Virus record (IMG/VR): IMGVR_UViG_3300036828_000667
Coordinates: 1 to 64,000 of that record
Reading direction: 5' to 3' (one strand)
From: a virus
Length of the DNA stretch: 64,000 nt
Every line of letters begins with the position of its first letter. Positions within the stretch are counted from its first letter, which is position 1. A program made the position numbers and the translations under genes. The notes beneath the pieces are model-generated. The model made no database searches and had not been told where the DNA came from. It saw only the letters and a program-made list of their open reading frames with translations. Of this stretch, positions 4,551 through 31,884 are shown piece by piece.

Positions 4551-7500
4551 TTAAGCTCCGGTCAAGAGGATAACAGCCCTCTGTATAAGACTACGAACTT
4601 TTCTAAAAACACTGATAACTGAATCTTGTACTATAATAAACGTCTTACCATAACGAGTAGAAGCAGTAGCAATTACTGGAGTTACCCAACTCATAGCTCG
4701 ATGGTATATTATACCCTGTTGTACCTTATTACGAACGACAAATCCAATACGCTTAAGCGTAGTACGAGGAACTGTCAAACGACTAGTAATTCTAACTCTG
4801 ATCGATTTCAAAGAAGTCTTACTAACAAACAACGTCTCAAACCAATGAATGGCTACAGACTTATGGTACCCAAAGCTTCTAGTGATCTTCTGGGGGGAAT
4901 AAAACACGCGGACAAAATAATAGGTTACATTTCTACTTAGCTTCTCAGAAACTGTGATCCTAATATGTTTTAGTACTGCCTTTCCTAACATAAACAGCTG
5001 AGCCGATCGAACAATAATTGATTTAGCCTTTCTAGTAGAAATTACATAAGCAAGATGAACATCAGTTACAATCCGCACAGGCTTTAGCATAGTACGACGC
5101 AAACTCGACAGCATATGCTGTGTAAATATTACAGGCTTACCAATAAGGCTTTTAACTATCTCATGGATAGAAATCCGAATTGTCTTTTGCAACGCCTTAG
5201 CTAGGCTAATACGTTCAATGAACCTGATCCCAAGAGACCTGTTGGTGACTCTGGTCAGAGTAATAGGTACAATAGTAACGATACGTAAAACCCTACTTGT
5301 AAAGGAACGTGATATAGTTATAATTTGTTCTTGGAATCCAATTATCTTTGACGCAACTCTTGATAAGGTTAATCTCTCTGGAGTACGAACCAGCGTGCGC
5401 CAATTCGCAGACTTGATCAAATCTAATGTTTGATCTATGTCTATGAATAGCTTACCTTTACTAGTTCTTACGAACTGTAATAACTCGTGTATCGTTACCT
5501 TCAACGTCTTCGAGATAACAACAGTAAAACTATACAACTGACTAGACGCAAACAACACCAAATGTGACGTTCTTACTACAATGAGAACGTTTTCAACAGT
5601 TGATAGATTAAATACCTTATAGACTGCTGGTCTAAATACCGTAGTACGCGAACTCTGTATAAACGCGAAATACTTAGACCCAACTCTAGAGAACGACATC
5701 ACAGGCCGCGTAATGAAAGAGAATAGCTTATTAGTAGCTTTGGTAAAGTCTAGCCTATAACTTGATATCAGAGTAATGTATTTGACTATCAGATTCGTAG
5801 AAGTAGTAACTTCGTTAGTTATATAAGAGAAGACCTTAATACTACTCTTAACCAAGCGAAGCTGTTCAACAGACTGTATATTAAATATCCTGTAAAACAG
5901 TTTGATCAGTTTGACAGGTTGATTAGTGACTAGTCCGAAGATCTTAGTATATGATCTAATTATAGAAGATACAACAGACAGACTAAAGGAAAACGACGAT
6001 TTAAATATCATTTTCGTTGAAGTAAACGTACTTACTGAAGTAATCTGGATGATCTTAACGGCTCTCTCAGTGGCTTTCCATAACTGAGAGTGTTGTATGA
6101 CCAATCTAAACTGAGCAGCTGGCTGCTTAGCTACCAACGAGAGTGTCTGGCCCATAGAGACTAGGTTCTGAAATGATGTGAACTGTATCGATGTAGTCGT
6201 TGCAACAATCTCACTCGAAAAATCAAGAATAATTCTAGCGATAATCTTTCCAGTAGAAATGATCTGATTTGTAATAACAAGTATCGAACCAGGTAGAGCT
6301 TTCGCTATCAAGAAAACCTGACCAGTAATAAGCGAAGGAGTCTTGATATAGATTCTTAGAACAGATAACACTTCAGAAGACCCGAACAAAAACTGGGGAA
6401 AGTAACTTAGCCTAGCTCTAGTTAGTAACATAGAGATAGAGGATGTAATTAGAGTCAATCTATTGAGCACTCTTATGTAAATAATACTTTCTCTTGTAGC
6501 AAAGTTGATAGAACTAGACGGCACGCGTATGATAGAAATAGCCTCAGATACTGTAAGTGCCAATGTTCTGAAGAAGGAGCTTACCCGAGTAGTCGAGATG
6601 ATTTGACTAGATAAGACTGGAAATACTCTACCTCTTTGGAAAAAGAGAACGAGTGAGAGAGCACTAGACATAGTTGCAACAATTGGAGCTATAAACTTGA
6701 ATAGAGCCGTCCTAACTGTGACTGCTTCTTTAGATATGTACGAGAACACAAGATCATACTGCTTAGGCTTTGTAACACGGGTATATAGAAGAATAATTTT
6801 ATTGGTGACCTTGCTAGTAGTAGCTGTAGCAGATACAAAAAATGTAGAAACCACTTGACGAACACGCGTTATGCCGAGATGTTGAGAAAGGACAACACCC
6901 ACACGTGCTGGGATAGCCCTTGTGATTCCCATCAACTCGGACAAGACAATCCCGAAAATCTTGTATGGGTTCTTAGAAATACTAAGAGACTGGACCATAG
7001 AAAATGCAGACAATCTACCAGAAAACTTGATACTAGAAATGGTCTCCTGACTTAGAAAATTTCTTACTACAATAAGACTTTTGGTAAACCTGAAATTCTC
7101 TGAGTTGATAATAACAACGTTTTTCGAAACATATGAAGCATAGCTGACAACCTGACTACTAAAAACCTGAATTATCGCTACCGGAAGTGTATGCAAGCCC
7201 TTGACAGCAGATACTACTAAAAGACTTCCGGTCTGGACAGTTCGCATTAAGCGAAGAGTCATATATCCTTTAGCAGTTAGCAGATTATTAGTAACAAACG
7301 ACGCCTGATATTTATAGATAGGAGCTAGCTCGGTAACTATCGAAGATATGCTAAATATAATCTTTGATCGAAGTGATTTAAAGAATTTGATCACCTGACC
7401 TATAGTGACGCTAATACTACGAGACACATACTTTATGAGAGACACTAGACTAGAGCTAGAAACATTAACAAATTTCAACAAAGAAATACGTCTAGTTATT

Positions 7501-9284
7501 ATCTCTAGTGTGGAGAAGAGCACTACCCTAACAGGACTAGTTCCCTTTGTGACACTCTCACCAACTTTGAACAAAAACGGCTTACTGGGACCTCGAATAA
7601 CTACTAACAAAACCGAGATGGCGTAGGGTAAAATCCTACTAATATATCTAATAAAAGAGATTACTTGGGACGACGTCAGCACAGTAGTTTTCGATACAAT
7701 AGCAGTTCTAGTGACTTTTTCTGGTGAAGAGAAAAGTCTAGTAAGAGATGGACTAGATAGCCTTGTAACAGATTCATGGACTGAGAATAAAATTGTTCTT
7801 CTTAAGCTTCTAGTAACTGCCAGCACAACAGAAATCGGGTTAACAACGACAGGTATCTTTTTAGTAGATAACTTGATACCAGTTACAAGCTGGGCAGACT
7901 TAATAGATAGCTTACCTGTAACGTTCTTCGTTACGAAGTTAGCCCCAGTGAGTGTAGAGTACGTAGATAGCGTCGATCTCAGTGCAATATTTGATTTAAA
8001 AGTCTGAACAGTAGCTATGCTGGTTTCAAATACTGAACTCAGCTTAGCTAAACCTTTAGCGATTCTAATAGTCTCATTAGAGTATATTGAAATCAGCTTA
8101 GCAGTCATTCCTCCAATGAACTTTTGAGAAACAACAGACACAGTCATACTAGGTATTGCTGTCGTTACTGTACCGGTACTAAAATCACTAGAAAAGTCTT
8201 TGTTGAAATCGCCTCCAGCGGTATCAACCATAAAGTCGGCAGAGTTAAAATCAATAGAGCTAAAATCAACAACACTACCGCCAGCACTACCGGCATTAGT
8301 AAACGATATTAGCTTAGAGAGCACTACCTTAATAGCTCTGATAGTCAATACACTAGTCTCGGTTATCGAAACTTGTTTCTGTCTAGCTAACATCCTAGCA
8401 GTTTGAAGTATTTCAGATGTAGCTATTGAAAGCTGTCTTTGTGTAACTGAGGCTATTATACGTTGAACAGTCAAGACTTCACGAGACTGTATCAGCAACT
8501 GCTTAATAGTAGATGTTCCAGTAAGTTTAGCGTAAATAATAGATACAGCCATACTAGGTATTACTGTCGTCGCTGTACCAGTACTAAAATCACTAGAAAA
8601 GTCTTTGTTGAAATCGCCTCCAGTACTAGACGTACCACTAGCACCAGCATTAGTAAATGATATTAGCTTAGGTAACTTCCTAATAGCTTGAAATATTTCA
8701 GACGTAGCTATTGAAAGCTGTCTCTGTGTAACCAAGGCTCTTATACGTTGGACAGTTAAGACTTCGCCAGAATACAACAACAGTTGTCTTACATTAGGTA
8801 TTCCGGTAAATTTAGCAGGAATAATAGATATAGTCATACTAGGTATAGTTGCTGTACCAGTACTAAAATCACTAGAAAAGTCTTTGTTGAAATCACCTCC
8901 AGTACTAGAAGCACCACCACCAGAATTGAGGAAGGATATCAGCTTTGATGTAGATGCTCCTACTACCTTAGCAGCTTGGACAGTAAACCTAACAGGTTGA
9001 GCAATCGAGATCAGCTTCGGTACATTAGCAGCTGTTCGCTTGACAGTTTGAACAGTTAATACACTTGAATGAGCAACCGAGATTAGCTTTGGTGTAACTA
9101 ACGCTTTTATTCGTTGGACAGTTAATACTGCACTAGAGTGTAACGAGACCAGCTTAGGAGTAGATGCCCCAGCACTGATCCTAGTGGCAGTGATAGATAC
9201 AATGCTTGACTCAGTAACCGCCAGTTTACCAGTTACATTTTTTGTTACTTGACTAGCCCCAGTGACTACCTGTCCAATGGGCAT
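4551..9284 (-). CDS. giant repetitive Ser/Thr/Val/Ile protein, putative tail fiber or adhesin
   Basis: 1577 aa made almost entirely of degenerate repeats of about 18-26 residues alternating hydrophobic beta-type positions with Ser/Thr and Lys/Arg, for example SEVLTVQRIRALVTQRQLSI. It is strongly basic with very few Asp residues. Three near-identical inserts with the core GGDFNKDFSSDFSTG lie at about residues 127-143, 225-245 and 365-385, and a TKNVTGKL motif recurs. The same repeat type is found in the 1306-aa protein at 21105-25025 and at the C-terminus of the next gene. I know no named family. A stacked-beta fiber or surface-binding shaft is inferred from the phage structural context. Long minus-strand frames rule out a chance ORF. 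Confidence 0.7.
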   Translation of the reverse strand: MPIGQVVTGASQVTKNVTGKLAVTESSIVSITATRISAGASTPKLVSLHSSAVLTVQRIKALVTPKLISVAHSSVLTVQTVKRTAANVPKLISIAQPVRFTVQAAKVVGASTSKLISFLNSGGGASSTGGDFNKDFSSDFSTGTATIPSMTISIIPAKFTGIPNVRQLLLYSGEVLTVQRIRALVTQRQLSIATSEIFQAIRKLPKLISFTNAGASGTSSTGGDFNKDFSSDFSTGTATTVIPSMAVSIIYAKLTGTSTIKQLLIQSREVLTVQRIIASVTQRQLSIATSEILQTARMLARQKQVSITETSVLTIRAIKVVLSKLISFTNAGSAGGSVVDFSSIDFNSADFMVDTAGGDFNKDFSSDFSTGTVTTAIPSMTVSVVSQKFIGGMTAKLISIYSNETIRIAKGLAKLSSVFETSIATVQTFKSNIALRSTLSTYSTLTGANFVTKNVTGKLSIKSAQLVTGIKLSTKKIPVVVNPISVVLAVTRSLRRTILFSVHESVTRLSSPSLTRLFSSPEKVTRTAIVSKTTVLTSSQVISFIRYISRILPYAISVLLVVIRGPSKPFLFKVGESVTKGTSPVRVVLFSTLEIITRRISLLKFVNVSSSSLVSLIKYVSRSISVTIGQVIKFFKSLRSKIIFSISSIVTELAPIYKYQASFVTNNLLTAKGYMTLRLMRTVQTGSLLVVSAVKGLHTLPVAIIQVFSSQVVSYASYVSKNVVIINSENFRFTKSLIVVRNFLSQETISSIKFSGRLSAFSMVQSLSISKNPYKIFGIVLSELMGITRAIPARVGVVLSQHLGITRVRQVVSTFFVSATATTSKVTNKIILLYTRVTKPKQYDLVFSYISKEAVTVRTALFKFIAPIVATMSSALSLVLFFQRGRVFPVLSSQIISTTRVSSFFRTLALTVSEAISIIRVPSSSINFATRESIIYIRVLNRLTLITSSISMLLTRARLSYFPQFLFGSSEVLSVLRIYIKTPSLITGQVFLIAKALPGSILVITNQIISTGKIIARIILDFSSEIVATTTSIQFTSFQNLVSMGQTLSLVAKQPAAQFRLVIQHSQLWKATERAVKIIQITSVSTFTSTKMIFKSSFSFSLSVVSSIIRSYTKIFGLVTNQPVKLIKLFYRIFNIQSVEQLRLVKSSIKVFSYITNEVTTSTNLIVKYITLISSYRLDFTKATNKLFSFITRPVMSFSRVGSKYFAFIQSSRTTVFRPAVYKVFNLSTVENVLIVVRTSHLVLFASSQLYSFTVVISKTLKVTIHELLQFVRTSKGKLFIDIDQTLDLIKSANWRTLVRTPERLTLSRVASKIIGFQEQIITISRSFTSRVLRIVTIVPITLTRVTNRSLGIRFIERISLAKALQKTIRISIHEIVKSLIGKPVIFTQHMLSSLRRTMLKPVRIVTDVHLAYVISTRKAKSIIVRSAQLFMLGKAVLKHIRITVSEKLSRNVTYYFVRVFYSPQKITRSFGYHKSVAIHWFETLFVSKTSLKSIRVRITSRLTVPRTTLKRIGFVVRNKVQQGIIYHRAMSWVTPVIATASTRYGKTFIIVQDSVISVFRKVRSLIQRAVILLTGA

Positions 9285-17606: not shown

Positions 17607-18134
17607 CTACTCTACCCAGTTTTTACCACTCCGAATATAAGAAATCATAACATGACTAACTCCAAATTCTGCTGCTAAACTCGTATTAATACCCCAATAG
17701 TGAGAACGAGACCTAATATCATCAACTTGTGATCGCGTAAGCTTTGAATTGCCGTTGCGTTGACCTTTCCCACTAGTTCCGTGTTCAATCTGGTCTTTCA
17801 CATTTTTTTCATGAGTATCCCATTTAATATTTTCAGGCCAGCGGTTATCAGAAGGATTTCCATTAAGATGACGACATTCTTGCCCAGGTGGACAAGGACC
17901 ATAAAACGCATTCAGGATAAGAGCATGAACTCTATATGTCTCCAACTTCCTTTCTTCGCCCTTCCACCGTCCAACTGTCATATACCCATCAGAGTTAGAT
18001 GTTAATTTTCTAAACTCAATCTCTTTTATAGTACGATTCTTAAACCTTCCTCCAGGAAGTACCCTAACACGACCACGATTTGAGACCTGATGGAACGGCC
18101 AACTCTCGATATCTTTCCAAATCTCTTCAGTCAC
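17607..18134 (-). CDS. NUMOD4/HNH homing endonuclease
   Basis: 175 aa from GTG 18134, which sits 6-7 nt after an AGGAGGG site; the frame is open for 27 more codons upstream. NUMOD4-like start (EIWKDIESWPFHQVSNRGRV), then an HNH core with CRHLNGNPSDNRWPENIKW near residues 85-105, and a C-terminal HTH-like segment (NTSLAAEFGVSHVMISYI) for target recognition. The same domain order occurs in the gene at 39402-39920. Confidence 0.8.
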   Translation of the reverse strand: MTEEIWKDIESWPFHQVSNRGRVRVLPGGRFKNRTIKEIEFRKLTSNSDGYMTVGRWKGEERKLETYRVHALILNAFYGPCPPGQECRHLNGNPSDNRWPENIKWDTHEKNVKDQIEHGTSGKGQRNGNSKLTRSQVDDIRSRSHYWGINTSLAAEFGVSHVMISYIRSGKNWVE

Positions 18135-18281
18135 TGTGATCCCTCCTAGTTTTACAGTCGTAGTTTTACAAACAGAAAAATCGGCGGCTGGCGGGAGACC
18201 GCCTTCCTCCGTCAAATAACCGCCAATCCATGGAGATTTAGTCCAACGTACTCCTGTTGTACGATCGACGCAAGAGGGAAT

Positions 18282-18767
18282 TCACTTCTCAGGCTTGGGT
18301 TTTGGCTTGGGGTTATAGTGCGGCTCGATAAGCTTCAGTATTTTGTGCAATCTGACTATAGCTCTATCTAACTCTTCATCCTTATCTTCTTTGATCCCTC
18401 TCAATTCCTTCAACTTACCGACTGCATGAGTTAGAGCAGCGTGAGCTAAAGTCTTACTGATACTAAGACTTGTACCAAGATGTTCAATCTGATGATGCAA
18501 ATGTGTCTCTACATCCCCAGGCGCAATATCTATATGAGCGGCATGCGTAATCCCCGTAATTACTGCACTGGCAAGAACTGATTTATGATGTTCCTTTACA
18601 GTTCCAAGAACCTTGCTAGCAGCACTGTGAACTGCCTGCTGTCCCTTACCGTTAACAAAACCGTTTATTCTAGATTTAATATCAGGTGACTTTGGACGAT
18701 CCCCCATTGTACCAAACATATATTGATCTTTTTCTATGAAGTCCAAAACACTAAGAACATAGCTCAT
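18282..18767 (-). CDS. hypothetical helical protein
   Basis: 161 aa, His- and Ala-rich helices (GITHAAHIDIAPGDVETHLHH), ending in a KPKPKPEK tail. It overlaps the stop-start of the 215-aa gene by 4 nt, so they are coupled. No family recognised. Confidence 0.5.
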   Translation of the reverse strand: MSYVLSVLDFIEKDQYMFGTMGDRPKSPDIKSRINGFVNGKGQQAVHSAASKVLGTVKEHHKSVLASAVITGITHAAHIDIAPGDVETHLHHQIEHLGTSLSISKTLAHAALTHAVGKLKELRGIKEDKDEELDRAIVRLHKILKLIEPHYNPKPKPKPEK

Positions 18768-19411
18768 TGAGATCCACCGTTCTTGGCCAGCATGTTGGAA
18801 AGTTCACGTGGACTCTTGCTTAGGTCACTAGTGCCAGCATCAGTAGTATCAGGTGCAGACATCTGATTTTGTATTCCTGTTGTCCCTAGAAGGCTAGTAG
18901 CACCTGTAGTGAGAGAAGATTGGGGCGTTGTCGTAGGAGGGTTGATACCTATAGATGATTGATCTAAGCCAGGACTAATAGGAGGCCTATTCAGGTTATT
19001 GGGACCGACATCGCCGGTCTGATGTTGACCCGTCAAGGACGGTTGACGTAAGCCCGTAGGTGGCTCACTGGATACAGAATTCGTTGTAGTCGTAGATCGA
19101 CTAGAAATATTCCCTAGGTCAGTCGTAGGATTATCATCAGAATAAGTCTTACCAATAAGCTCTCTGAGAACGGAAGAAACTGGGGAAGAGAAACTGGTCA
19201 AGGACTCACCTCGCTTCCTGCTATAAAACGCCGCGAGAGCTTGTTGTCTACGCTTAGCCTTGGACTTTCCCTTAAATCTGGGATCATCGCTGTTAACGAA
19301 GTCCTTTATCCAGGCACCAGCACCACTAGACACTGATAAGGGCATATCTTTACTCCTAGTCACATTACTACGTTGACCAACCATATTAATTGTATTGAGA
19401 ATATAACGCAC
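18764..19411 (-). CDS. putative prohead or assembly protein
   Basis: 215 aa from a GTG start with a GAGG site. Residues about 30-70 contain WIKDFVNSDDPRFKGKSKAK followed by RRQQALAAFYSRKRG, a motif seen in phage prohead-core or scaffold-type proteins. The rest is Ser/Thr/Pro/Gln-rich and disordered. The tandem structured-RNA element lies in its 5' untranslated region. Function inferred weakly. Confidence 0.5.
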   Translation of the reverse strand: MRYILNTINMVGQRSNVTRSKDMPLSVSSGAGAWIKDFVNSDDPRFKGKSKAKRRQQALAAFYSRKRGESLTSFSSPVSSVLRELIGKTYSDDNPTTDLGNISSRSTTTTNSVSSEPPTGLRQPSLTGQHQTGDVGPNNLNRPPISPGLDQSSIGINPPTTTPQSSLTTGATSLLGTTGIQNQMSAPDTTDAGTSDLSKSPRELSNMLAKNGGSQ

Positions 19412-19437: not shown

Positions 19438-19724
19438 TCTCGGGCAAGAGGTATAAGGCAGCGCTGTCTCTAGTTGCCTCTACCTCTTGCCCGCCGTGGG
19501 TCCTTTAGAGGATATGCACTAGGAGCTTCTCGGGTTTATCCTCCAAAGGCACGGGAGTGATCTCGGACAAAGCAGCACAAGGTACAGATACCTTTCCAGA
19601 TGATTCCTTCCTTGTACTACTTTGTCCGCCGTGGTCCCGAAACTAGTATGCGAAAAACGATCACTTAGCACTACGAGCACTGCGAGTACCTTGTGAAATC
19701 GATTTCTAATTTCAGGCACGGGAG
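19438..19724 (-). ncRNA. tandem pair of structured RNA units (unknown class)
   Basis: Two units (about 19438-19557 and 19561-19724) share the plus-strand layout TCTCGG-stem-CCGCCGTGG-stem-GGCACGGGAG. Unit 1: CGGGCAAGAGGTA pairs perfectly with TACCTCTTGCCCG, then CCGTG pairs with CACGG around a 13-bp stem with one mismatch. Unit 2 keeps the junction bases while the stems differ (CGGACAAAG/CTTTGTCCG and CCGTG/CACGG). Different stems with the same pairing indicate selected structure. Flanking genes are minus strand, so the transcript would be the reverse complement. Confidence 0.55.
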
Positions 19725-19726
19725 CT

Positions 19727-19918
19727 TCATTTAATAATCCGTTTCAAGTCAGGAACTTTCCTCTTATTTCGCAATCTCAATTCACTCAACCGGTTCATTA
19801 CCGCCCTTTCGTTACGTCCCCTTGAATTAAGAGACATAGCCAAACAGGCAGGATCTACCTTGACTTTGTCATTATGCCACTGCTTAAGAAATTCATCGTC
19901 CTCTTTAGACCACTTCAT
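19727..19918 (-). CDS. SANT/Myb-like small DNA-binding protein
   Basis: 63 aa from ATG 19918, which overlaps the upstream stop (TGAAATG). Pattern KWSKEDDEFLKQW, a central helix and RNERAVMNRLSELRLR resembles a single Myb/SANT repeat with a basic C-terminus. DNA binding is inferred. The longer frame overlaps the upstream gene fully and is less likely. Confidence 0.5.
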   Translation of the reverse strand: MKWSKEDDEFLKQWHNDKVKVDPACLAMSLNSRGRNERAVMNRLSELRLRNKRKVPDLKRIIK

Positions 19919-19919
19919 T

Positions 19920-20213
19920 TCACTTGGTCTCAGACTCCAGTGGACGTAATGGAGGTAATGGTACTGTTTCGGTTTCGTCCGATTGTAATCCGAAAGTGGT
20001 ATTACTTCTATTACCACTTATACATTGCGACAGTAATGTGTGAATTGACGCAAGATCACGACTACGTACATCAGCTTGCTTTACCAACGCAAAATAGATC
20101 AAGCCCAATAGAGCCATGTTCATGACTACTAGAGCAAGGGATAATGGCTGCGATTTAAGAGAATCCATGAAACTGGCAGCAGCCTTACCAGCCTCTTCAA
20201 CAGGACCAGTCAT
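19920..20213 (-). CDS. small membrane protein (possible holin-type)
   Basis: 97 aa with one transmembrane segment at about residues 24-44 (LSLALVVMNMALLGLIYFAL) after a short N-terminal helix, and a soluble C-terminus with a Pro-rich end. Size and topology allow a lysis or membrane accessory role, but no endolysin is seen nearby, so this stays open. Confidence 0.5.
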   Translation of the reverse strand: MTGPVEEAGKAAASFMDSLKSQPLSLALVVMNMALLGLIYFALVKQADVRSRDLASIHTLLSQCISGNRSNTTFGLQSDETETVPLPPLRPLESETK

Positions 20214-21104: not shown

Positions 21105-24100
21105 TCACGCAGCCATTTTAGTTTTAAAGGTGTACTCAATACGCCCTTTAACTGTAATATAAGCAGATGGATCAGCTGACCTAATCCATACGATCTCACG
21201 ATCGGCTATCAAGTGTATATCGCCTTGATTGTCTACCGAGTATGGCATAGTCGGAGTGATATCAAGTGATGGAGTATATGCTATGAAACACTCACCACGT
21301 CTGACTTCAAGAACTATGCCTATTGCAATATCTTGAACTAATCCAGACGCTATAGGTATCCAATCGCCCTTGACGTTGATCCACTCAAACGACAACATTC
21401 CCCCAGGCTGGAGGAAGTTTGGAAGATACCAGAATTTATTGGTAACGTATCCCCAGACTTGAGAAGTCTTAATATAAGCTAGAACACCACGTAGCTTACC
21501 AGCAATCGTAGTAACCAACGATCTACTATATAGAGATAGAGTTAGATAGACTGATCTAGATCCTTGGACAACCTGTGTCTGAGAAAGACGGATTAGTACC
21601 TCAATAGCAGTTTTAAGGAAATTCTGATTGATAACGATATTGACAATATGAGCCACAGTACCCTTAACTAATAAAATAGAAGAGTCGTATATCAATACGA
21701 TCTTAGCACGGTTCGGCCTGGGAAGCAAGAGGATTTCCCCTGAGACAAGGCCTACCCTCTTGACGACCGAAACAAGTCGCTGCACACTCTCAGCCTGAAT
21801 AAACGACACCAGCCTTCTGGCAATAGAGCTTCTCGTTATAATCTGAGACTGGAAGAGTAAGAACTGGCGAAGAGACGATCTGAGAGAGACCAACGTCTCT
21901 GGACTTACTACAGACAAAGACCTTGTAAATAGCTTACCAAAAGAACTGGTTAACACCCCATGACTAACAAACGTAGCTAGCCTGGACAACAGCTTAACAG
22001 CAGACACCAACTCAGATTGAGTCACAGCAATGATTCGACTTGGTATCTTTCCTATCGCAACGACACTAGAGTTTATAAAAGAGAGTGTCCTGTAGAATGA
22101 GACCATAGCAACTCTAGTAACAATCTCAGGATGCAATATGGATACGGTTTTTAGAAATGCTCTTTGGTTAAACTGAGTAACCACTTCGTGGCTAACGAAG
22201 GAAGCCAGTCTACCTGTCAGTCTAATCAATGAGTAGAGTTGAGACTGAGTGAGTGTTGTAAGCCGACCGACAACCCTAGAGACCGAAGCGACCTGCGACT
22301 GAGCAAATACTGCTAGCTCTGGACGCGTAACCTGACGAGTAATCAGTTGTCCAATCAGTGTAGACAAGGTCTTAAAAAATGCCTTCTGATTGAACTGAGT
22401 TACAATCTCGGGACTAGAGAACTGTTTGATCCTACTAAATACCTTAACTAGACTAATAGCTTCACTTGAAACCAGAGACCTTATACTAGTAATCGCTCTA
22501 GCGGACGACAGTATCTGAGACTGTTGAAATATCCCGTAAGCTGTATTCCTGGTAGACATAAGTATGGATATAGCTGTATGAACTATTATAGTTCTACTTG
22601 TCAAAGTTATATGTGTAATGAATTCTCCAGTCGAGAAGGTAAAGGTTTTGGTAGTTGAAATTGCCCTAGTGAAAATTTGTGGATTCGTAGTTAGAATCGA
22701 CTGTAGTTTAGTTCTGATAGCTGAATAAGTCAGAACTTCTGCGAGTGTAGTCTTGACGATCTTAACAGCCTGACGTACGGCTGTAAGAGCTTCACTGCTG
22801 GTAGCGACGATCGACCGAGTGACAACCCTAACTAAGAAGACGGCTTCAGAGCTAGCCAACGTCAACATACGCGAAGACAGCCTAACCAGAGACAAGAATT
22901 CAGAACTGGTTAAGGTAACAGTCCTAAAGAACGTTTTGATTTGACTTAAAGACAAACTCTCACTAATCGATAGGGTAACTACTCTAAACCTACTAGAGAC
23001 CCTGGCTAATGTCAGAGACTCAGGACTTGCAGTAGTTATAACATGAGAAACACTACCTATAACATCTGCATACAATTCAGAACTAGTAATAGATATTGTA
23101 CGTAGTAAGCTCTTGACTCTAGTCAGGGTTAATACTTCATTGGTAATCACTGTTATAATACGGGAAATACTACCTATTACGTCTGCATACAATTGAGAGC
23201 TAACAAGAGATATGAGTTTTTGGTTTACTACTACACCGGACTGAAACTGCGTAACTGCAGTTACTAGTTCTCCAATCGAGAATACCCTGAATCTACCAGG
23301 AATCTTAGCTAGTGTAAGTGTTTCTCCACTAACGACAGCTACGATATGTGAAATGCTACGTATTATACCAGCATACAATTCAGAGCTAGTAAGAGTTATG
23401 GTACGTAGTAAGCTCTTGACTCTAGTCAGGGTTAATACTTCACTGCTAGTAACTATTATAATATGAGAAATACTACCTATAACATCTGCATACAATTGAG
23501 AGCTAGTAAGATATATCGTGCGTAGTAGACTCTTAATTCTAGTCAGAGTCAGTACTTCATTGCTAGTCACTGTTATGATATGAGAAACACTATCTATTAC
23601 ATCAGAGTAGAATTCGGAACTGGTAATAGATACGATATGAATATACTGTCTAACTGTAGTTATCGTCTCGACTATCGACAACGTGATTGTTCTAAACTTA
23701 CTTGAAATCCTAGCGAGTGTAAGTATCTCTGGACTAGAAATCTGTAAGAACTTGGCAGTAATCTTTGCAGTAACTCTAGAGACTAATTCAGGATCGACGA
23801 AGACCAGCATCTTAGTAACTGATCTAATAAGATACACAGCCGAAGAATTGAAGAAAACCGTAACTCTCGATATGCTCATAACAAATTTTGATAGACTAGG
23901 TTGAATAACAAGTAACTTACCTGTTACGTTCTTATTAACGAAGTTAGCCCCAGTAATCATAGAAAGCATAGGGTTAATCGTAACAAGCTTTCGAGTACCA
24001 AAGGTTTGATACGTTGGAATAGCAGTTAGTGTCTCCGCAATCGACAACGTAACCGTCCTAAACCTACTAGAAATGCTGAATAGCGTAAACGCCTCTGGAT

Positions 24101-25025
24101 TAAATACGCCTAAAACTCTAGATATATTCGATATCCTAGTAAGACTCTCAGAACTCGTTAAAGTTATTGTCCTAAAACTCTGTACAGATCGTATACCAGT
24201 AACTACCTGATGTGAAGTTATAGTAGTAATTGCTTTCTGACGTAGAATAGATCGTATACCAGTAACTGCCGGATGTGAAGTTATAGTAGTAATTGCTTTC
24301 TGACGTAGAATAGATCGTATACCAGTAACTGCCAGATGCAAAGGTGCAACTGTTATCGGCAGTTGGGTTACAACTGGACCACCACCACCAGAAAAATCAG
24401 GTGTAACAATAGTAGCTGTACCAATTCTAAATAGTACGTCAGAGCTACCGTTAGCACTTGCTGTAGTCAGTACCCATTCAAGCTGAATGAACAAATACTC
24501 ATTACTCAATACTATAGGAGATCCGCTGTTCATAACAATCGTTATACTAGAATTAGTGTCTACAGTAGTTGATAAGGTAATATTCGCACATTGAAAAGTT
24601 GCTTGTAACTTAGTAGCTGCAGAACCATCGGCATTTGCCGATTTCCATACCTGGGCAGCAATATTCCCAATAGCGCCAGCTACAGTAGCACGCATATTAA
24701 AATTAAAAGTCCAAGCTGTGCCTGCAAAAGTACCTGTATATGCCGGAGTTATAAAACTATCACCAGCCCCAGCATTAGTAGCATCACTACCTTTTGTTGG
24801 ACCGGAAGAAAAAATACCAATTGGATCAGTAAAAGCAGAAGCTGAAGAAGTAGATGATGCGCCTAACCTAGAAGCAAAATATGGCGTACTAGTAGAAGTA
24901 GTACCTACAAGCCAGCCATAGGTGGAGTTGGCTGCAGTCGGAGCAGTACCGCCATCTTGTAATTGACCAAAGAAATTAGGTGACGGAGCAGCCGTACCAA
25001 GGATATACAGTGTTTTAATAGCCAC
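21105..25025 (-). CDS. giant repetitive protein with N- and C-terminal domains, putative fiber
   Basis: 1306 aa. Residues 1-215 form a beta-type domain (Gly/Ser/Thr-rich). About residues 230-1180 consist of 18-20-residue repeats such as TSSELYADVIGSISHIITV and SSEVLTLTRVKSLLRTI. The last ~120 residues change to a mixed domain with Trp and acidic residues (FLQPGGMLSFEWINVKGDW), which could be a receptor-binding or capping end. Shares the TKNVTGKL-type motif and repeat style with the 1577-aa protein. GTG start at 25025 directly abuts a 14-codon ORF. The fiber role is inferred. Confidence 0.65.
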   Translation of the reverse strand: MAIKTLYILGTAAPSPNFFGQLQDGGTAPTAANSTYGWLVGTTSTSTPYFASRLGASSTSSASAFTDPIGIFSSGPTKGSDATNAGAGDSFITPAYTGTFAGTAWTFNFNMRATVAGAIGNIAAQVWKSANADGSAATKLQATFQCANITLSTTVDTNSSITIVMNSGSPIVLSNEYLFIQLEWVLTTASANGSSDVLFRIGTATIVTPDFSGGGGPVVTQLPITVAPLHLAVTGIRSILRQKAITTITSHPAVTGIRSILRQKAITTITSHQVVTGIRSVQSFRTITLTSSESLTRISNISRVLGVFNPEAFTLFSISSRFRTVTLSIAETLTAIPTYQTFGTRKLVTINPMLSMITGANFVNKNVTGKLLVIQPSLSKFVMSISRVTVFFNSSAVYLIRSVTKMLVFVDPELVSRVTAKITAKFLQISSPEILTLARISSKFRTITLSIVETITTVRQYIHIVSITSSEFYSDVIDSVSHIITVTSNEVLTLTRIKSLLRTIYLTSSQLYADVIGSISHIIIVTSSEVLTLTRVKSLLRTITLTSSELYAGIIRSISHIVAVVSGETLTLAKIPGRFRVFSIGELVTAVTQFQSGVVVNQKLISLVSSQLYADVIGSISRIITVITNEVLTLTRVKSLLRTISITSSELYADVIGSVSHVITTASPESLTLARVSSRFRVVTLSISESLSLSQIKTFFRTVTLTSSEFLSLVRLSSRMLTLASSEAVFLVRVVTRSIVATSSEALTAVRQAVKIVKTTLAEVLTYSAIRTKLQSILTTNPQIFTRAISTTKTFTFSTGEFITHITLTSRTIIVHTAISILMSTRNTAYGIFQQSQILSSARAITSIRSLVSSEAISLVKVFSRIKQFSSPEIVTQFNQKAFFKTLSTLIGQLITRQVTRPELAVFAQSQVASVSRVVGRLTTLTQSQLYSLIRLTGRLASFVSHEVVTQFNQRAFLKTVSILHPEIVTRVAMVSFYRTLSFINSSVVAIGKIPSRIIAVTQSELVSAVKLLSRLATFVSHGVLTSSFGKLFTRSLSVVSPETLVSLRSSLRQFLLFQSQIITRSSIARRLVSFIQAESVQRLVSVVKRVGLVSGEILLLPRPNRAKIVLIYDSSILLVKGTVAHIVNIVINQNFLKTAIEVLIRLSQTQVVQGSRSVYLTLSLYSRSLVTTIAGKLRGVLAYIKTSQVWGYVTNKFWYLPNFLQPGGMLSFEWINVKGDWIPIASGLVQDIAIGIVLEVRRGECFIAYTPSLDITPTMPYSVDNQGDIHLIADREIVWIRSADPSAYITVKGRIEYTFKTKMAA

Positions 25026-25081: not shown

Positions 25082-25783
25082 CTAAGACACGTTCCACTGA
25101 GTCTGAGTAGGCCAGCTGTATACGAGAGGCCATGGTAATGTTGGAGGAGTAAACCCACCTACAGGAAATATCGCTGTATTTGATATTCTGAGTTCGTCAA
25201 TGTAACCATTAAAAGGAGAGCCAGCAGTAGGGAAGACACTATTTCCTATTCCTACGCTAGCGGTTGCAGTACCAATATTCTGAGTGCTAACACCACTCCC
25301 GCTTGCTGACGGTACGCCATTAAGAAACCCAGTTACGTTATTAGAACTGTCTCTTTGCCATGCGACGTGATACCACGTACCTGTAACAGGTGTAAAATCA
25401 ATATGAAAAAAGTGAGTACCGGGTTGATCACTGAAATACAAATTAAGACCACCCCCTGTAATCCAATTGATAATATTAGTACCCATACCTAACATACATA
25501 TATTACCAGCTGTTGAATTCCAATTAACCCAAAAATCAAAAGTAAAAGGCGAACCAGACGGGAAATAGAAATCAGGACTAGGATCTATGGCTAAACCATC
25601 ATAATTACCACCTGTAGTGCAATTTAGTGATCCACTACCAAAGTAAGCGTTACTAGATATTGTACCGACACCTCCCTGAACACTGTATGGCGCTACATTG
25701 TGTCCATTACCAGAGACATCAGTAAAGGTGCTAGAACCTGGGGGACCATCGAAATGGCAAACGAACAGAGGATTAGTAGCCAT
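25082..25783 (-). CDS. LamG/concanavalin-like carbohydrate-binding protein
   Basis: 233 aa with a laminin-G-like lectin fold: LFVCHFDG start, FGSGSLNC, FTFDFWVNWN, WYHVAWQRDSSNNVTGFLNG and YIDELRISNTAIF, the standard order of strands in LamG domains. Phages use such domains on spikes and fibers to bind surface sugars. Its start overlaps the stop of the following 1010-aa spike. Confidence 0.85.
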   Translation of the reverse strand: MATNPLFVCHFDGPPGSSTFTDVSGNGHNVAPYSVQGGVGTISSNAYFGSGSLNCTTGGNYDGLAIDPSPDFYFPSGSPFTFDFWVNWNSTAGNICMLGMGTNIINWITGGGLNLYFSDQPGTHFFHIDFTPVTGTWYHVAWQRDSSNNVTGFLNGVPSASGSGVSTQNIGTATASVGIGNSVFPTAGSPFNGYIDELRISNTAIFPVGGFTPPTLPWPLVYSWPTQTQWNVS

Positions 25784-28700
25784 TATGAAGCATAACCATA
25801 GGACGAGCCATCGGCTATGATCTTAGAATGATCATCAGTAGTCCCCAACCATTGCCAGCAGTTAAACTTTGTGATCCCTTGGTCAGTTTTAAGAAAAACA
25901 TCTACGATTGGAGTCTGGGATAGAGGACCGCCTTGGCCTCCTCCAGTTGCTCCAGTCATACTGAACGAAACAACATCAGATAACCAATTAGCAAAACCTG
26001 AAAAGGAGTCAGCACCAACCCCACCACTCGGACCAGTTCTAGTAATAGTTCTTAACCCAGCCTGAGTTAGATCAATAGTAGCTGTAAAGTTGTTCTGGAT
26101 TAAATTGGAATCAAAAGCATTTGATGTTATACTAAAACGAAGACTGCTTGAACCTGTATAGATTGCTGGTCTGAGCACGTTTATGAGAAACGTATCAACG
26201 TTTCCCCACAAAATCATAGCATCAACGTAACCTGCGATAGACTCTTGCCAACCAAAGAATTCACGACGGCCTCGACTGAACAAAGGATCTTCAATAGAGC
26301 CATTTAGATCAGCAATCATACGTCCGCCTGTATTTCCAAATGCTGTCAACCTAGGCATTGGATGAGGACGGAATTTCAGAGCATTAGACACAGCAGTAAC
26401 AGTACCAGTAGCCGCAGAAAGATTAACTGGAGAACCGCCTTTCGAGGTGGCTACTTGAAATTGTCCCGTTGTCATACCAGCTGATAACACATAAAATGTC
26501 GTACTTTGATCAACAGGAAAAGTGCCGGTTGTTGTAAAATGGACAGGAGTATCAACAGATAAACTATGACCTGACCACAAAACAAAATTACCAGAAAATG
26601 TAACTGTAGATTTAGTACTGTTTCCAACAGGCTTTGATGTTAGAGTCGTCTCGAAACAGAAGTTGTTACTACCATCAGTAAAGATATTACCAACCATAAA
26701 TGGAGCACCCATATTCGCATGGACGCCTGCCATATCAGTAACAAACATTTTATGACCAGGAATAGCCCATTGGTTTATATTAGCCATTGAAGTGAGCGGA
26801 ATACGGAATGTACCATTGTCCCACGTGAACCTCTCGATCATATTATAAATCGCGGTAGGGCCGTTAGCATCGTCGAAGCGAGTAACAATATCAACTTTGT
26901 TAATTTCATTACCAAGCAATAAACAACTCTCTGTCACACCAAAAGTAGGACCAAATACCATATTTTGAATTTTACTTTCTTTGAACACGTTTCTTTTGAC
27001 AGTACCATACATACCAGCAAATTTGCAACCTTGTACACTAAGAACATTAGTAGCAGCACTAGCAAGATTAAGGCTAATATTTGTACCCTCGCAATGTTTA
27101 TATTCTAAATATTCTATGTTCTTATCTACCTCAATCCCGGTATTATCACCACAAACTCGACATCGTTCGAAGATCACACGTTTAGAGGTGCTAGGTTGTA
27201 ACCCCTGGCCATCTAAGGCACAGTCCTCAAATTTGACGAATCTGCCAGTCGCTATACTAGGTCCCCAGGGCTCTAAGGCACGAAAACCTCTAAATATTTG
27301 CTCTTGATCCCAGCCTGCACCCAACGCATAAATACCAGCTGGTCCTATTGGAGCATATTGATTTCCTCCGTCATTAGTACCAGGAAAAATCATAGGCCAT
27401 TTAGCTGAGAAGCTACAATACGTAGGTTCACTAATAGTGACAGCACCAGAAGAGTTAATCGCTATGATCTTGACATACTGACACACACCAAAATTAGGTG
27501 GGTTTGAGGCATTTACAACACTAGGATCAACAGGATTAGCTACATAGAAATTTTGTGTGTCTATCCCAGCAACTCGAATCCATTGACCAACATAAAAAAG
27601 ATTATATCTAGTAGGATCTTTAAGCTGGAGAACTGTAGAACCATGCTGGACTGAGTTGATAAGAGCCCACTGTCCAAAAGCAGCAGCATCAGTATTACCA
27701 CAGGATAACTGATCAAATACCGCACCATAAGCCTCTATAAGCATTTTCCTCTGAGAACCACTTCCTGGAACATAAGCGATTTCGTGAGGAAATCTATAAT
27801 ATCCAGGAGGAATAACAGTCTTCACCCACTCTCTATTCAGTGGAGTAACAAACAATGGATTAGAGAAACCAGTGTGATTACCCTGACCACCATCTGAAAA
27901 TGTAATAACTGATCCACCTGGAGTAGTTGATATCTTGAACGAAGTCCCAGGAACAAGCCCAGTTGCTGAAGCATAGAATAATGTAAGCTTGCATGGTTGA
28001 GTAGGTGAAATAAGGTTTTGAGGTAATGCTTGATCTGATACAAAGCAAACTGGAGTATTAGCTGTGATGTTATGACCGCTCCATTGTACGTCTGAGCCTG
28101 AGAACGTCACAGGACCATAAATGCCTGAAGCACCTCCGCTAGTGCTGACTGGCACGTTAGGAGGACTAGGAAGGACACCTCCGACTTGCCATGCATTATC
28201 AGCTGAGAATGAAAACGTATCCTTCGTGAAGTGTTGTCCAGGAGTACCTTGTGTGTAGTCGAGTACATAGTATGGCTGAAGAAGAGTTATTCCTGATGGG
28301 GCTGGCATACCTCCAGGTATGAAACAAAAACAGTCATTGCGTCTCATATCATGGTTAGGCCAATGAACGACAGTCGTACCGCCGCTATCGATAGTTACAG
28401 GATAACTACCACTTCTAACTTGCCGAGAGATCGAAGATGCCCAATCCCACCAAGGACCAGAAGTACCATCTATCACTTGATTCCATGTGACACCGTCCCC
28501 ATGAACCCCATAATCTCCAACATTCAATACAGGTAACTGTCCGGTAACTCTTTCCCAGTATTTACCGTCAGCAGACTGGACATTGTTAAACATTGGTCCT
28601 TGTGTTGTAGCTGGTTTCCAGAAACAGAAACCTTCCTTGTCACCAATCCCCAATGTGACTACGAAGCTCATACCAGGGTCTAATGTAGCTGCCTGTAACT

Positions 28701-28815
28701 GAGCAATAGAATCAAATGGGATAATCATACTAAGCAAAGTCCGCATAGTAGCGGCACTAATAGCTCCAGTACCAGTCGTCGGCAGACTTGAGTTTATGAC
28801 ATCACGAACTGTCAT
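25783..28815 (-). CDS. tail spike, beta-helix type (paralog 1)
   Basis: 1010 aa. N-terminal ~100 residues are a short attachment domain (PMFNNVQSADGKYWERVTG); the centre has a beta-solenoid look with NVGDYGVHGDGVTWNQV and repeated short strands, and two copies of a V-T-F-S-G-x-x-V-x-W-x-x-H block linked to fiber-style Gly/Ser loops. Homologous along its length to the next gene. Likely a trimeric spike that binds or cleaves host polysaccharide; no catalytic residues were pinned down. Confidence 0.7.
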   Translation of the reverse strand: MTVRDVINSSLPTTGTGAISAATMRTLLSMIIPFDSIAQLQAATLDPGMSFVVTLGIGDKEGFCFWKPATTQGPMFNNVQSADGKYWERVTGQLPVLNVGDYGVHGDGVTWNQVIDGTSGPWWDWASSISRQVRSGSYPVTIDSGGTTVVHWPNHDMRRNDCFCFIPGGMPAPSGITLLQPYYVLDYTQGTPGQHFTKDTFSFSADNAWQVGGVLPSPPNVPVSTSGGASGIYGPVTFSGSDVQWSGHNITANTPVCFVSDQALPQNLISPTQPCKLTLFYASATGLVPGTSFKISTTPGGSVITFSDGGQGNHTGFSNPLFVTPLNREWVKTVIPPGYYRFPHEIAYVPGSGSQRKMLIEAYGAVFDQLSCGNTDAAAFGQWALINSVQHGSTVLQLKDPTRYNLFYVGQWIRVAGIDTQNFYVANPVDPSVVNASNPPNFGVCQYVKIIAINSSGAVTISEPTYCSFSAKWPMIFPGTNDGGNQYAPIGPAGIYALGAGWDQEQIFRGFRALEPWGPSIATGRFVKFEDCALDGQGLQPSTSKRVIFERCRVCGDNTGIEVDKNIEYLEYKHCEGTNISLNLASAATNVLSVQGCKFAGMYGTVKRNVFKESKIQNMVFGPTFGVTESCLLLGNEINKVDIVTRFDDANGPTAIYNMIERFTWDNGTFRIPLTSMANINQWAIPGHKMFVTDMAGVHANMGAPFMVGNIFTDGSNNFCFETTLTSKPVGNSTKSTVTFSGNFVLWSGHSLSVDTPVHFTTTGTFPVDQSTTFYVLSAGMTTGQFQVATSKGGSPVNLSAATGTVTAVSNALKFRPHPMPRLTAFGNTGGRMIADLNGSIEDPLFSRGRREFFGWQESIAGYVDAMILWGNVDTFLINVLRPAIYTGSSSLRFSITSNAFDSNLIQNNFTATIDLTQAGLRTITRTGPSGGVGADSFSGFANWLSDVVSFSMTGATGGGQGGPLSQTPIVDVFLKTDQGITKFNCWQWLGTTDDHSKIIADGSSYGYAS

Positions 28816-28830
28816 CAGAGATTTTCCTGG

Positions 28831-31800
28831 TTAAGAGGCATACCCGTAGCAAGCGCCGTCGGCTATGATCTTAGAATGATCGTCCACAGTCCCTAACCAT
28901 TGCCAACAGTTAAGCTTAGTGATTCCTTGGTCAGTTTTAAGAAAAACATCTACGATTGGAGTGGCGTTAAGAGGACCACCCTGACCTCCTCCAGATGCTC
29001 CAATCTGCCATATCCCTATGTAATCAGATAACCAATTAGCAAAACCTGGGAAAGGAAGTGAGTCTGCTCCGATTGGAGTACTTGTAGTAGTTCTAGTAAT
29101 AGTTCTAAGTCCTGGTTGGGTTAGATCAATCGTGGCTGTGAAATTGTTCTGGATCAGAAGAGAGTCAAAAGCATTAGCTGACATATTCAAACGAAGACCG
29201 CTTGAACCTACATAAGTCGCTGGTCTGATCACGTTTATAAGGAAAGTATCTACGTTTCCCCAAAGTTGAATTCCATCAGTATATTGACCAGTATTTCCAT
29301 CTGACCAACCAAAGATCTGACGACGACCTCTACTGAATAGCGGCTCTTCGATAAGAGAGCCACACATATCACTAATCCCTCGTCCGCCTGTATTTGCAAG
29401 TGCTGTTAGTCGAGACGTGGGATGAGGACGGAATTTAAGAGCGTTAGATACCCCTGTATGAGTACCAGAACCTCCAGTGAAAGTAACAGGTGAACCTCCC
29501 TTGGAAGTGGCTACTTGGAAAGTTCCTGTAGTTAAGCCAGCTGATAATACATAGAGAGGAAAGCTTTGATTAAACCCAGAAGGCAAAGTTCCTGTCGTAA
29601 GGAAAAAGACCGGAGTATTAACAGGCAAGTTATGATTTGCCCATTGAACATTCGTACCAGAAAACGTAACTGTAGCTTTAGTAGTGTTCCCTACAGGCTT
29701 GGAAGAAAGAGTCGTCTCAAAACAGAAGTTACCACTACCATCGTTATAAACATTTCCAATTACAAATGGCATACCCATATTTTGAAATGCACCTGCCATA
29801 TCAGTGACAAAACACTTATTACCAGGAACACACCACTGATTTATAGGCCCCATCGCGGTAAACGGAATACTAAATGTGCCGTTATTGTACGTAAATCTTT
29901 CAATCATATTAACAATAGGATTTACCATACCAGCATCATCGAAACGATTAACAGTATCAATATAACGTATTTCGTTACCAAACAACAAACAGTTATCTGA
30001 CATTCCAAATGTAGGGCCAAAAACCATGGTACCGAGTTTACTATCTTTAACAATAGTTCTTTTTACTGTACCTCCTACGGTATAAAATTTAGAACCTTGT
30101 ATACTGAGAATATTATTACAAGCACTAGCAATATTTAGAGAAATTTTATCACCTTCAATATGAGTATATTCATCATGCTCAGAGAGTTTGTCCACTTCAA
30201 TCCCGGTATTGTAACCACAAACTTGACCACGTTCAAAAACTGTACGTCTAGATGACCCTGGTTGAACTCCTTGACCTTCCATTCTAACATCAAAAATATG
30301 CATAGTCCTCCCGTTAGAACTCTGAGGACCCCATGGTTCTAGCGAACGCATGCCAAAAGATACAATATCACAATCCCATCCTGGACCCATACCATAAATA
30401 CATGCTGGACCACTCCCAGGTATACTATCATCTGACATACCCGGATAAATCAAAGGCCATTTAGCTGAATAAGTATAAGCTGTAGGCTCGCTAATACCAA
30501 TGGCTCCAGATGAATTAACTGACGTGATCTTGACGTATTGAAAAACCTGTAGATTGATCGGCCATGAGTCAGGCCCTTGACTCGTAGGCGGAGCTTGATA
30601 ATGATTCTGTAAGTCCAAACCACCAATAAAAATCCATTGACCAACATAAAAACGATTATACCTAGTAGGATCTTTTAGCTGAAGTGTCGTAGCACCATTC
30701 TGGACTGAATTGATAAAACCCCAAGCTTTAGGATTCTGCATAATAACAGAACTACCATCAGTATTACCAACACCAGTAGAATCAAATATAGCACCATAGC
30801 TTTCCATAACCATTTTTCTCTGAGAACCACTCCCAGACTGTGCAGCAGACTCATGAGGCATTCTATAGTATCCAGGAGGAATAACGCTCTTCACCCACTC
30901 CCTATTCAGTGGGGTAATAAACACAGGATTAGAGTAACCAGTAGCATTACCAGAGCCACCATCTGTAAACGTAATAGGAGACCCACCTGGAGTAGACGAG
31001 ATTTTAAATGAAGTCCCTGCAACAAGTCCTGTCGATAAGGCATAGAAAAGCTGAAGTTTGCATGGTTGATTAGGTGGAATTAAAATCTGAGGTAATGCTG
31101 CATCTGAAGTAAAGCACACAGGTGTATTAGCTATGATATTATGTCCACTCCATTGCACATCTGATCCTGAGAACGTCACAGGACCAAAGATGCCCGAAGC
31201 ACCTCCAGTAGTACTAACAGGTACATTAGGAGGACTAGGCAAAAGACCACCGACTTGCCATGCATTGTCAGCAGAAAAGGCAAAGCTATCTCTGGTAAAG
31301 TATTGTCCAGGAGTACCTTGTCCCAGATCGAGTACAAAATATGGTTTGAGAAGAGTAAGTCCAGTTGGGAGTGTCATCCCTCCTGGTATGAAGCAAAAGC
31401 AATCGTTACGCCTCATATCATGCTTGGGCCAGTGAATGACCGTAGTACCTCCACTGTCAATAGTAGCTGGGAAACTCCCTCCTCTGTTCCGTCGAGTGAT
31501 TGTAGCTGAAAAATCCCACCATGGACCCGACGAACCATCATCTACTTGATTCCATGTAACACCATCACCATGAATTCCGTATTGTCCAACATTCAAAACT
31601 GGTAATTGACCTGTAACTCTTTCCCAGTATTTACCATCGGCAGACTGGATGTTATTGAACATTGGACCTTGGGTAGTAGCTGGTTTCCAGAAAGAGAAAC
31701 CTTGCTTATCACCTATCCCTAATGTTACTACGAAGCTAATCCCTGAATCTAAGGTTGCTTGTTGTAGTAGAGTAACAGAATCAAACTGAACGATCATACT

Positions 31801-31884
31801 AAGCAAGTTACGCATAACAGCAGCAGTAATAGCTCCAGCACCACTACTTGGAAGATACGAATTTATGACATCACGTGTTGTCAT
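28831..31884 (-). CDS. tail spike, beta-helix type (paralog 2)
   Basis: 1017 aa, similar to the preceding spike from start to end (same N-terminus with PMFNNIQSADGKYWERVTG, same VTFSG block, same C-terminal IIADGACYGYAS versus IIADGSSYGYAS). Central loops differ most, as expected if the two recognise different surface sugars. Tandem duplication with 15 nt between genes. Confidence 0.7.
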   Translation of the reverse strand: MTTRDVINSYLPSSGAGAITAAVMRNLLSMIVQFDSVTLLQQATLDSGISFVVTLGIGDKQGFSFWKPATTQGPMFNNIQSADGKYWERVTGQLPVLNVGQYGIHGDGVTWNQVDDGSSGPWWDFSATITRRNRGGSFPATIDSGGTTVIHWPKHDMRRNDCFCFIPGGMTLPTGLTLLKPYFVLDLGQGTPGQYFTRDSFAFSADNAWQVGGLLPSPPNVPVSTTGGASGIFGPVTFSGSDVQWSGHNIIANTPVCFTSDAALPQILIPPNQPCKLQLFYALSTGLVAGTSFKISSTPGGSPITFTDGGSGNATGYSNPVFITPLNREWVKSVIPPGYYRMPHESAAQSGSGSQRKMVMESYGAIFDSTGVGNTDGSSVIMQNPKAWGFINSVQNGATTLQLKDPTRYNRFYVGQWIFIGGLDLQNHYQAPPTSQGPDSWPINLQVFQYVKITSVNSSGAIGISEPTAYTYSAKWPLIYPGMSDDSIPGSGPACIYGMGPGWDCDIVSFGMRSLEPWGPQSSNGRTMHIFDVRMEGQGVQPGSSRRTVFERGQVCGYNTGIEVDKLSEHDEYTHIEGDKISLNIASACNNILSIQGSKFYTVGGTVKRTIVKDSKLGTMVFGPTFGMSDNCLLFGNEIRYIDTVNRFDDAGMVNPIVNMIERFTYNNGTFSIPFTAMGPINQWCVPGNKCFVTDMAGAFQNMGMPFVIGNVYNDGSGNFCFETTLSSKPVGNTTKATVTFSGTNVQWANHNLPVNTPVFFLTTGTLPSGFNQSFPLYVLSAGLTTGTFQVATSKGGSPVTFTGGSGTHTGVSNALKFRPHPTSRLTALANTGGRGISDMCGSLIEEPLFSRGRRQIFGWSDGNTGQYTDGIQLWGNVDTFLINVIRPATYVGSSGLRLNMSANAFDSLLIQNNFTATIDLTQPGLRTITRTTTSTPIGADSLPFPGFANWLSDYIGIWQIGASGGGQGGPLNATPIVDVFLKTDQGITKLNCWQWLGTVDDHSKIIADGACYGYAS

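Follow-up and report, generated by a model that had tools for sequence, protein, structure and literature searches.

The locus

The stretch of DNA analysed here, called the window, comes from an uncultured phage and covers positions 1 to 64,000 (64,000 nucleotides) of the IMG/VR virus record IMGVR_UViG_3300036828_000667. On its minus strand, a 96-aa gene (19727..20017) is followed by a 215-aa gene (18764..19411). The 315-nt gap between them is bounded by the stop codon at 19727 and the next start at 19411, and holds almost nothing besides two RNA units. According to the ORF list, the 215-aa gene starts at a GTG at 19411, 26 nt past the RNA and with GAGG 5′ of the GTG; ATG 19384 is an alternative start. 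Neither flanking gene had a PHROGs or Pfam match, so the label of putative assembly gene that the initial annotation had given to the 215-aa gene gained no support from them. No relatives were traced through the 96-aa neighbour gene.

The initial annotation had also reported two adjacent units with the same junction bases at 19438-19724. Reading the letters, we found them exactly there: TCTCGG..CCGCCGTGG..GGCACGGGAG occurs at 19438-19557 and again at 19561-19724 (the second with TCTCGG from 19561), with 3 nt between the units. As had been noticed, the stems differ between the units yet are complementary within each. No exact copies of GGCACGGGAG or CCGCCGTGG were found elsewhere in the window. 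The strand had to be corrected. The plus strand, which had been read before, folds more weakly over the gap (z -4.0), whereas the minus-strand fold reaches -132 kcal/mol versus -90.8 +/- 4.5 in shuffles (z -9.1). The RNA is the minus strand and is co-directional with both flanking genes. The gap is intercistronic and, since only about 2 nt separate the stop codon of the 96-aa gene from the RNA, the latter could equally be called a 3′ UTR or a 5′ leader. Its earlier placing in the gap before the 215-aa gene was right, but the term 5′ leader only partly suits an RNA that abuts the upstream stop codon and whose homologues have mostly unrelated neighbouring genes.

Unit A (19561..19724, minus strand; fold z -6.4) is transcribed first and reads CUC, P2 hairpin, P3 hairpin, AGA. 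Its P2 hairpin (19629..19721) has a CCGUG/CACGG lower stem, an AC bulge at 19634-19635 and a long variable upper stem, as indicated by folds and by covariation among homologues. Its P3 hairpin (19564..19628), CGG...CCG, has 19 continuous pairs, and is seen as an inverted repeat (19564-19582/19610-19628) as well as in folds and covariation. Unit B (19438..19557, minus strand; fold z -7.2) is transcribed second. Folds and sequence place its P2 hairpin at 19494..19554, with the bulge ACC, which has one C more than that of the other units. Its P3 hairpin (19441..19493) is supported by folds and by a perfect inverted repeat (19441-19453/19481-19493). On the minus strand, P2 of the window units follows CCGUG-CC...GG-AC-CACGG.

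Several other genes on the same strand deserve mention. Downstream of the RNA, an HNH endonuclease gene (17607-18215; PHROGs E 5e-33) possibly encodes a free-standing homing endonuclease. A 161-aa protein (18282-18767) had no family match; it resembles part of the minor-head-like proteins of two contigs described below, G005 (514 aa) and G001 (1375 aa), with a best E of 1e-7, and both of these contigs also carry the RNA. Two adjacent genes (25783-28815 and 28831-31884; 1010 and 1017 aa) have near-identical starts, MTVRDVINSSLP.. and MTTRDVINSYLP.., and are likely a tandem duplication of a tail-fibre-like gene; the tail-fibre-like protein of the window had no relatives among cultured phages. 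Very long proteins of 1577 and 1306 aa are encoded at 4551-9284 and 21105-25025. The former had no PHROGs match, and the latter is built from short degenerate repeats, e.g. LTSSEVLTLTRI.

Homologues in other viral contigs

Scanning with sequence patterns in which the core bases were fixed and the stems were free, we found eight further units in six other viral contigs: G001 (L004, 73 kb), G002 (L014/L033, 15.2 kb), G003 (L040, 51 kb), G004 (L060, 42 kb), G005 (L061, 64 kb) and G006 (L062, 33 kb). Tandem copies occur in the window (G000), with two units, and in G002, with three. The key viral scan fixed TCCC..GCC / GGACC..GGCGG / CCGAGA and left the middle (NN) pairs of P2 and both stems open. 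It matched six units in five viral contigs, and all six form both helices. Some homologues had passed a filter that required pairing; the key open-stem scan is the cleanest test. The invariance of the core bases was set by the search patterns and hence is not independent evidence, whereas pairing at the free positions is.

The search was extended beyond these contigs. When 84,980 species of bacteria and archaea were scanned with a like pattern, 81 stretches came up, with no convincing member among the 80 listed; the best covariance-model score among those scored was 24.7 bits. A covariance-model search of about 600 bacterial genomes was empty, which is weak evidence because the prefilter scored few candidates. 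The absence from bacterial genomes thus holds for the patterns used. Nine cultured phages with a terminase or polymerase like those of the contigs contained no member; their one weak match, with 16.5 bits and within an 888-aa gene of Microcystis phage Mel-JY33, was not counted as one. The pattern matches L199, L200 and L170 were rejected for their structure or score. Whole-unit BLAST against phages and plasmids gave only chance matches (E 2 or more). As the collections were scanned with exact patterns, the true spread of sequences and hosts is probably wider than what we found.

G002 (L240, 1-15218) carries a DNA polymerase gene and a possible excisionase-like gene in addition to its three RNA units. 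It has a 44-base terminal repeat, located within P3 of one of these units. Because of this repeat it is probably a closed circle, and it could be a satellite or a phage-plasmid.

Conserved structure and covariation

The units share one plan. From 5′ to 3′, it consists of YUC, hairpin P2 (CCNNG-CC...GG-AC-CNNGG), hairpin P3 (CGG...CCG), which abuts P2 without a linker, and AGA. Units are about 75-165 nt long and sometimes tandem. The invariant bases sit in the short YU(C)/AGA closing element and in the AC bulge of P2, and those that are unpaired are few (in the alignment about C6, A33, C34 and A68, to which the YU/AG closing pairs can be added). Loop sequences vary among units, and we found no recurrent pseudoknot, loop-flank or loop-loop pairing across them. 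Because they carry the invariant bases, the closing element and the bulge probably form a recognition site; the outer stems probably need only length and pairing.

The covariation in homologues that the initial annotation had suggested looking for was present. In the alignment of ten units, standard pairs make up 95.8% of the cells, and 14 of the 24 pairs show two-sided changes (38 cells). In P2, for example, the variants are CCGUG/CACGG, CCAUG/CAUGG and CCGCG/CGCGG. The covariation score was 0.50 versus 0.21 in shuffles; none of the 500 shuffles reached the observed value and no slid register came close. The alignment used (A3) omits the one extra C of the unit B bulge. A covariance model built without the window units (R1) found both of them, unit A with 43 bits (E 5.9e-9) and unit B with 41.2 bits (E 3.0e-8). 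In covariance-model scores, members lie at 41-63 bits and decoys at or below 24.7. An RNA class whose core stays constant while its stems vary freely is therefore well supported.

Strong palindromes in tandem copies could also belong to a DNA element, such as a recombination site or a replication or packaging hairpin. In the fixed register, G-U pairs far outnumber A-C mismatches (16 versus 3), which indicates that the modelled strand is the RNA. For nine of the ten units the gene strand also had the better fold z-score, and in each of the seven genomes the element and the upstream gene share a strand. We consider a DNA element barely credible on these results. REP elements are intergenic tandem hairpins with conserved stems, and integron attC sites have fixed ends, variable stems and their own core boxes. 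The present units resemble both in being intergenic tandem hairpins, and attC also in combining fixed ends with variable stems, but they differ from both in that the signal is at the RNA level.

Comparison with known RNAs

The Rfam check that the initial annotation had proposed gave no match to a known class: with 4227 families at the gathering score, there were no matches in the window. Relaxed Rfam searches of the window and the homologues gave only generic miRNA-like hairpins; MIR408 and other miRNA matches were rejected, being generic long hairpins far below the gathering score. In the open-licence literature we found no description of such a motif. With the compensatory changes in homologues, the suggestion of a tandem structured RNA of unknown class was upheld. 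It appears to be a genuine and undescribed class of viral RNA, and what is new lies at the level of the RNA class rather than in a proven mechanism.

Small self-cleaving ribozymes have a compact conserved core and variable helices, and some classes occur in phages. The units are like hammerhead, HDV-like/theta, twister, twister sister, pistol and hatchet ribozymes in these two respects, and their tandem copies would also suit self-cleavage of the message close to AGA or the AC bulge. A ribozyme pair had been among the initial suggestions. It is very improbable, given that Rfam ribozymes gave no match at gathering or relaxed thresholds, that so few invariant bases are unpaired and that neither a pseudoknot nor a loop contact is conserved. 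An example of small ribozymes in phages is given by the HDV-like theta ribozymes (PMC10879173).

If the junction and bulge are the recognition site and the stems matter only for their length, binding of a protein or a polymerase would fit better than catalysis or ligand binding. The exonuclease-resistant RNAs of flaviviruses have a conserved junction and variable stems, are often tandem and require a pseudoknot ring. The units share the first three of these features with them, but no conserved pseudoknot closes a ring round the 5′ end. The comparison is with the flavivirus RNAs as a class (PMC5760640).

The HK022 put RNA is a cis-acting phage RNA of about 70 nt with two stem-loops and a key junction, and it needs no phage protein (PMC9378689). 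Our units likewise have two adjacent stem-loops in a phage RNA, according to folds and covariation. They might thus be RNA-only antiterminators, in which the nascent two-hairpin RNA binds the host RNA polymerase and allows read-through of later pauses and terminators. Their position inside co-directional operons, with no co-encoded partner, would agree with such a role. However, put is located near early promoters, whereas these elements lie after stop codons, between genes of replication-type and head-gene regions. Model R1 gave no match in the HK022 genome at E 10, and hence no homology to putL/putR, and no terminator was found on the RNA strand just downstream of the element in the window. 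Antitermination of the put kind therefore seems unlikely.

Genomic context

In five of the seven genomes, the distance from the upstream stop codon to the RNA is 1, 3, 3, 6 or 24 nt. It is 148 nt in G003, and in G006 the element overlaps a possible 60-aa ORF. In three genomes (G000, G003 and G006), the element is followed, at a distance of 10-26 nt, by a start codon that has a Shine-Dalgarno sequence. In the window, neither a sigma70-like promoter nor a U-tract terminator was found on the RNA strand at the element; no U-run follows AGA, and the units therefore lack the hairpin plus U-tract of an intrinsic terminator. They have the setting of an intercistronic element, between co-directional genes of one message and close to stop and start codons.

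The genes beside the element are mostly unrelated between genomes. It lies near a DNA-polymerase-like gene in G003, whose terminase shares about 50% identity with terminases of Roseobacter-type phages in the Zobellviridae, with an endolysin-like gene on one side and a head protease on the other in G005, and next to a possible excisionase or regulator in G002. The exception is a MazG-like gene upstream in both G001 and G006, which also have a block of replication genes in common. Here the element was kept downstream of the MazG-like gene (83-89% identical DNA), the DNA between gene and element has diverged, and good alignment beyond the gene is confined to the core stretches of the element. This pattern is what purifying selection on the core would be expected to look like. 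The other contigs have only scattered general phage genes in common (e.g. DNA polymerase, amidase-like protein and terminase), and no protein is common to all seven genomes.

The closeness to a ribosome-binding site in three genomes might point to a riboswitch or a translational leader of the downstream gene. A riboswitch would be expected to keep the same kind of downstream gene, but no kinship links the downstream genes of different genomes, and the conserved structure does not include the Shine-Dalgarno sequence. We regard this role as highly improbable.

Possible function

Our leading guess, which we hold tentatively, is a cis-acting intercistronic element for mRNA processing or protection that is recognised by a host factor. 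It is based on the tight positions after stop codons and before ribosome-binding sites, with neither a promoter nor a U-tract terminator in the window. The element would be carried inside polycistronic phage messages and punctuate them between genes in cis. A host factor (an RNase, an RNA-binding protein or an exonuclease) may recognise the core, and the message would then be cut at the element or protected by it. This would give the upstream gene a fixed 3′ terminus and let the message of the downstream gene begin cleanly just ahead of its ribosome-binding site. We infer that the partner is probably the host's because the genomes have no partner gene in common. There are points against action in cis. 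Phage genomes are compact, so a snug intergenic position alone does not establish it; the upstream spacing is not tight in G003 and G006; and the flanking genes, being unrelated, give no hint of a regulated function.

T7 RNase III sites and T4 processing sites are also hairpins between co-directional genes of a polycistronic phage message. To our knowledge, such processing signals share a shape but no invariant core across dissimilar phages. The present elements differ from them in having an invariant sequence core that is spread over dissimilar phages.

The RNA could instead act in trans. The units would be cut from the 3′ UTR and soak up, as a decoy or sponge, a host protein that binds RNA or acts in defence; tandem copies would raise the dose. 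The tandem copies in the window and G002 agree with this, as do the unrelated neighbouring genes in very different phages and the sequence-free stems around an invariant core, which are expected of a protein-binding module. On the other hand, the units have no promoter or terminator of their own in the window and they keep close to stop codons in most genomes. We find a trans-acting RNA rather unlikely.

The units may belong to a class of phage RNAs, common to very dissimilar phages and absent from bacterial chromosomes, that capture a host enzyme by means of a minimal junction and bulge and without a phage protein; the enzyme could be RNA polymerase, an RNase or a defence protein. This proposal is doubtful, though not far-fetched.

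Structured RNAs of phages are under-sampled, and much has been learnt about the host machinery from those that work without a phage protein, such as put. That phages with mostly unrelated genes carry one compact class of RNA, its core constant and its stems free to vary, points to one common host target. The covariance model lets annotators find such elements, and the common host target could be fished out using the RNA itself.
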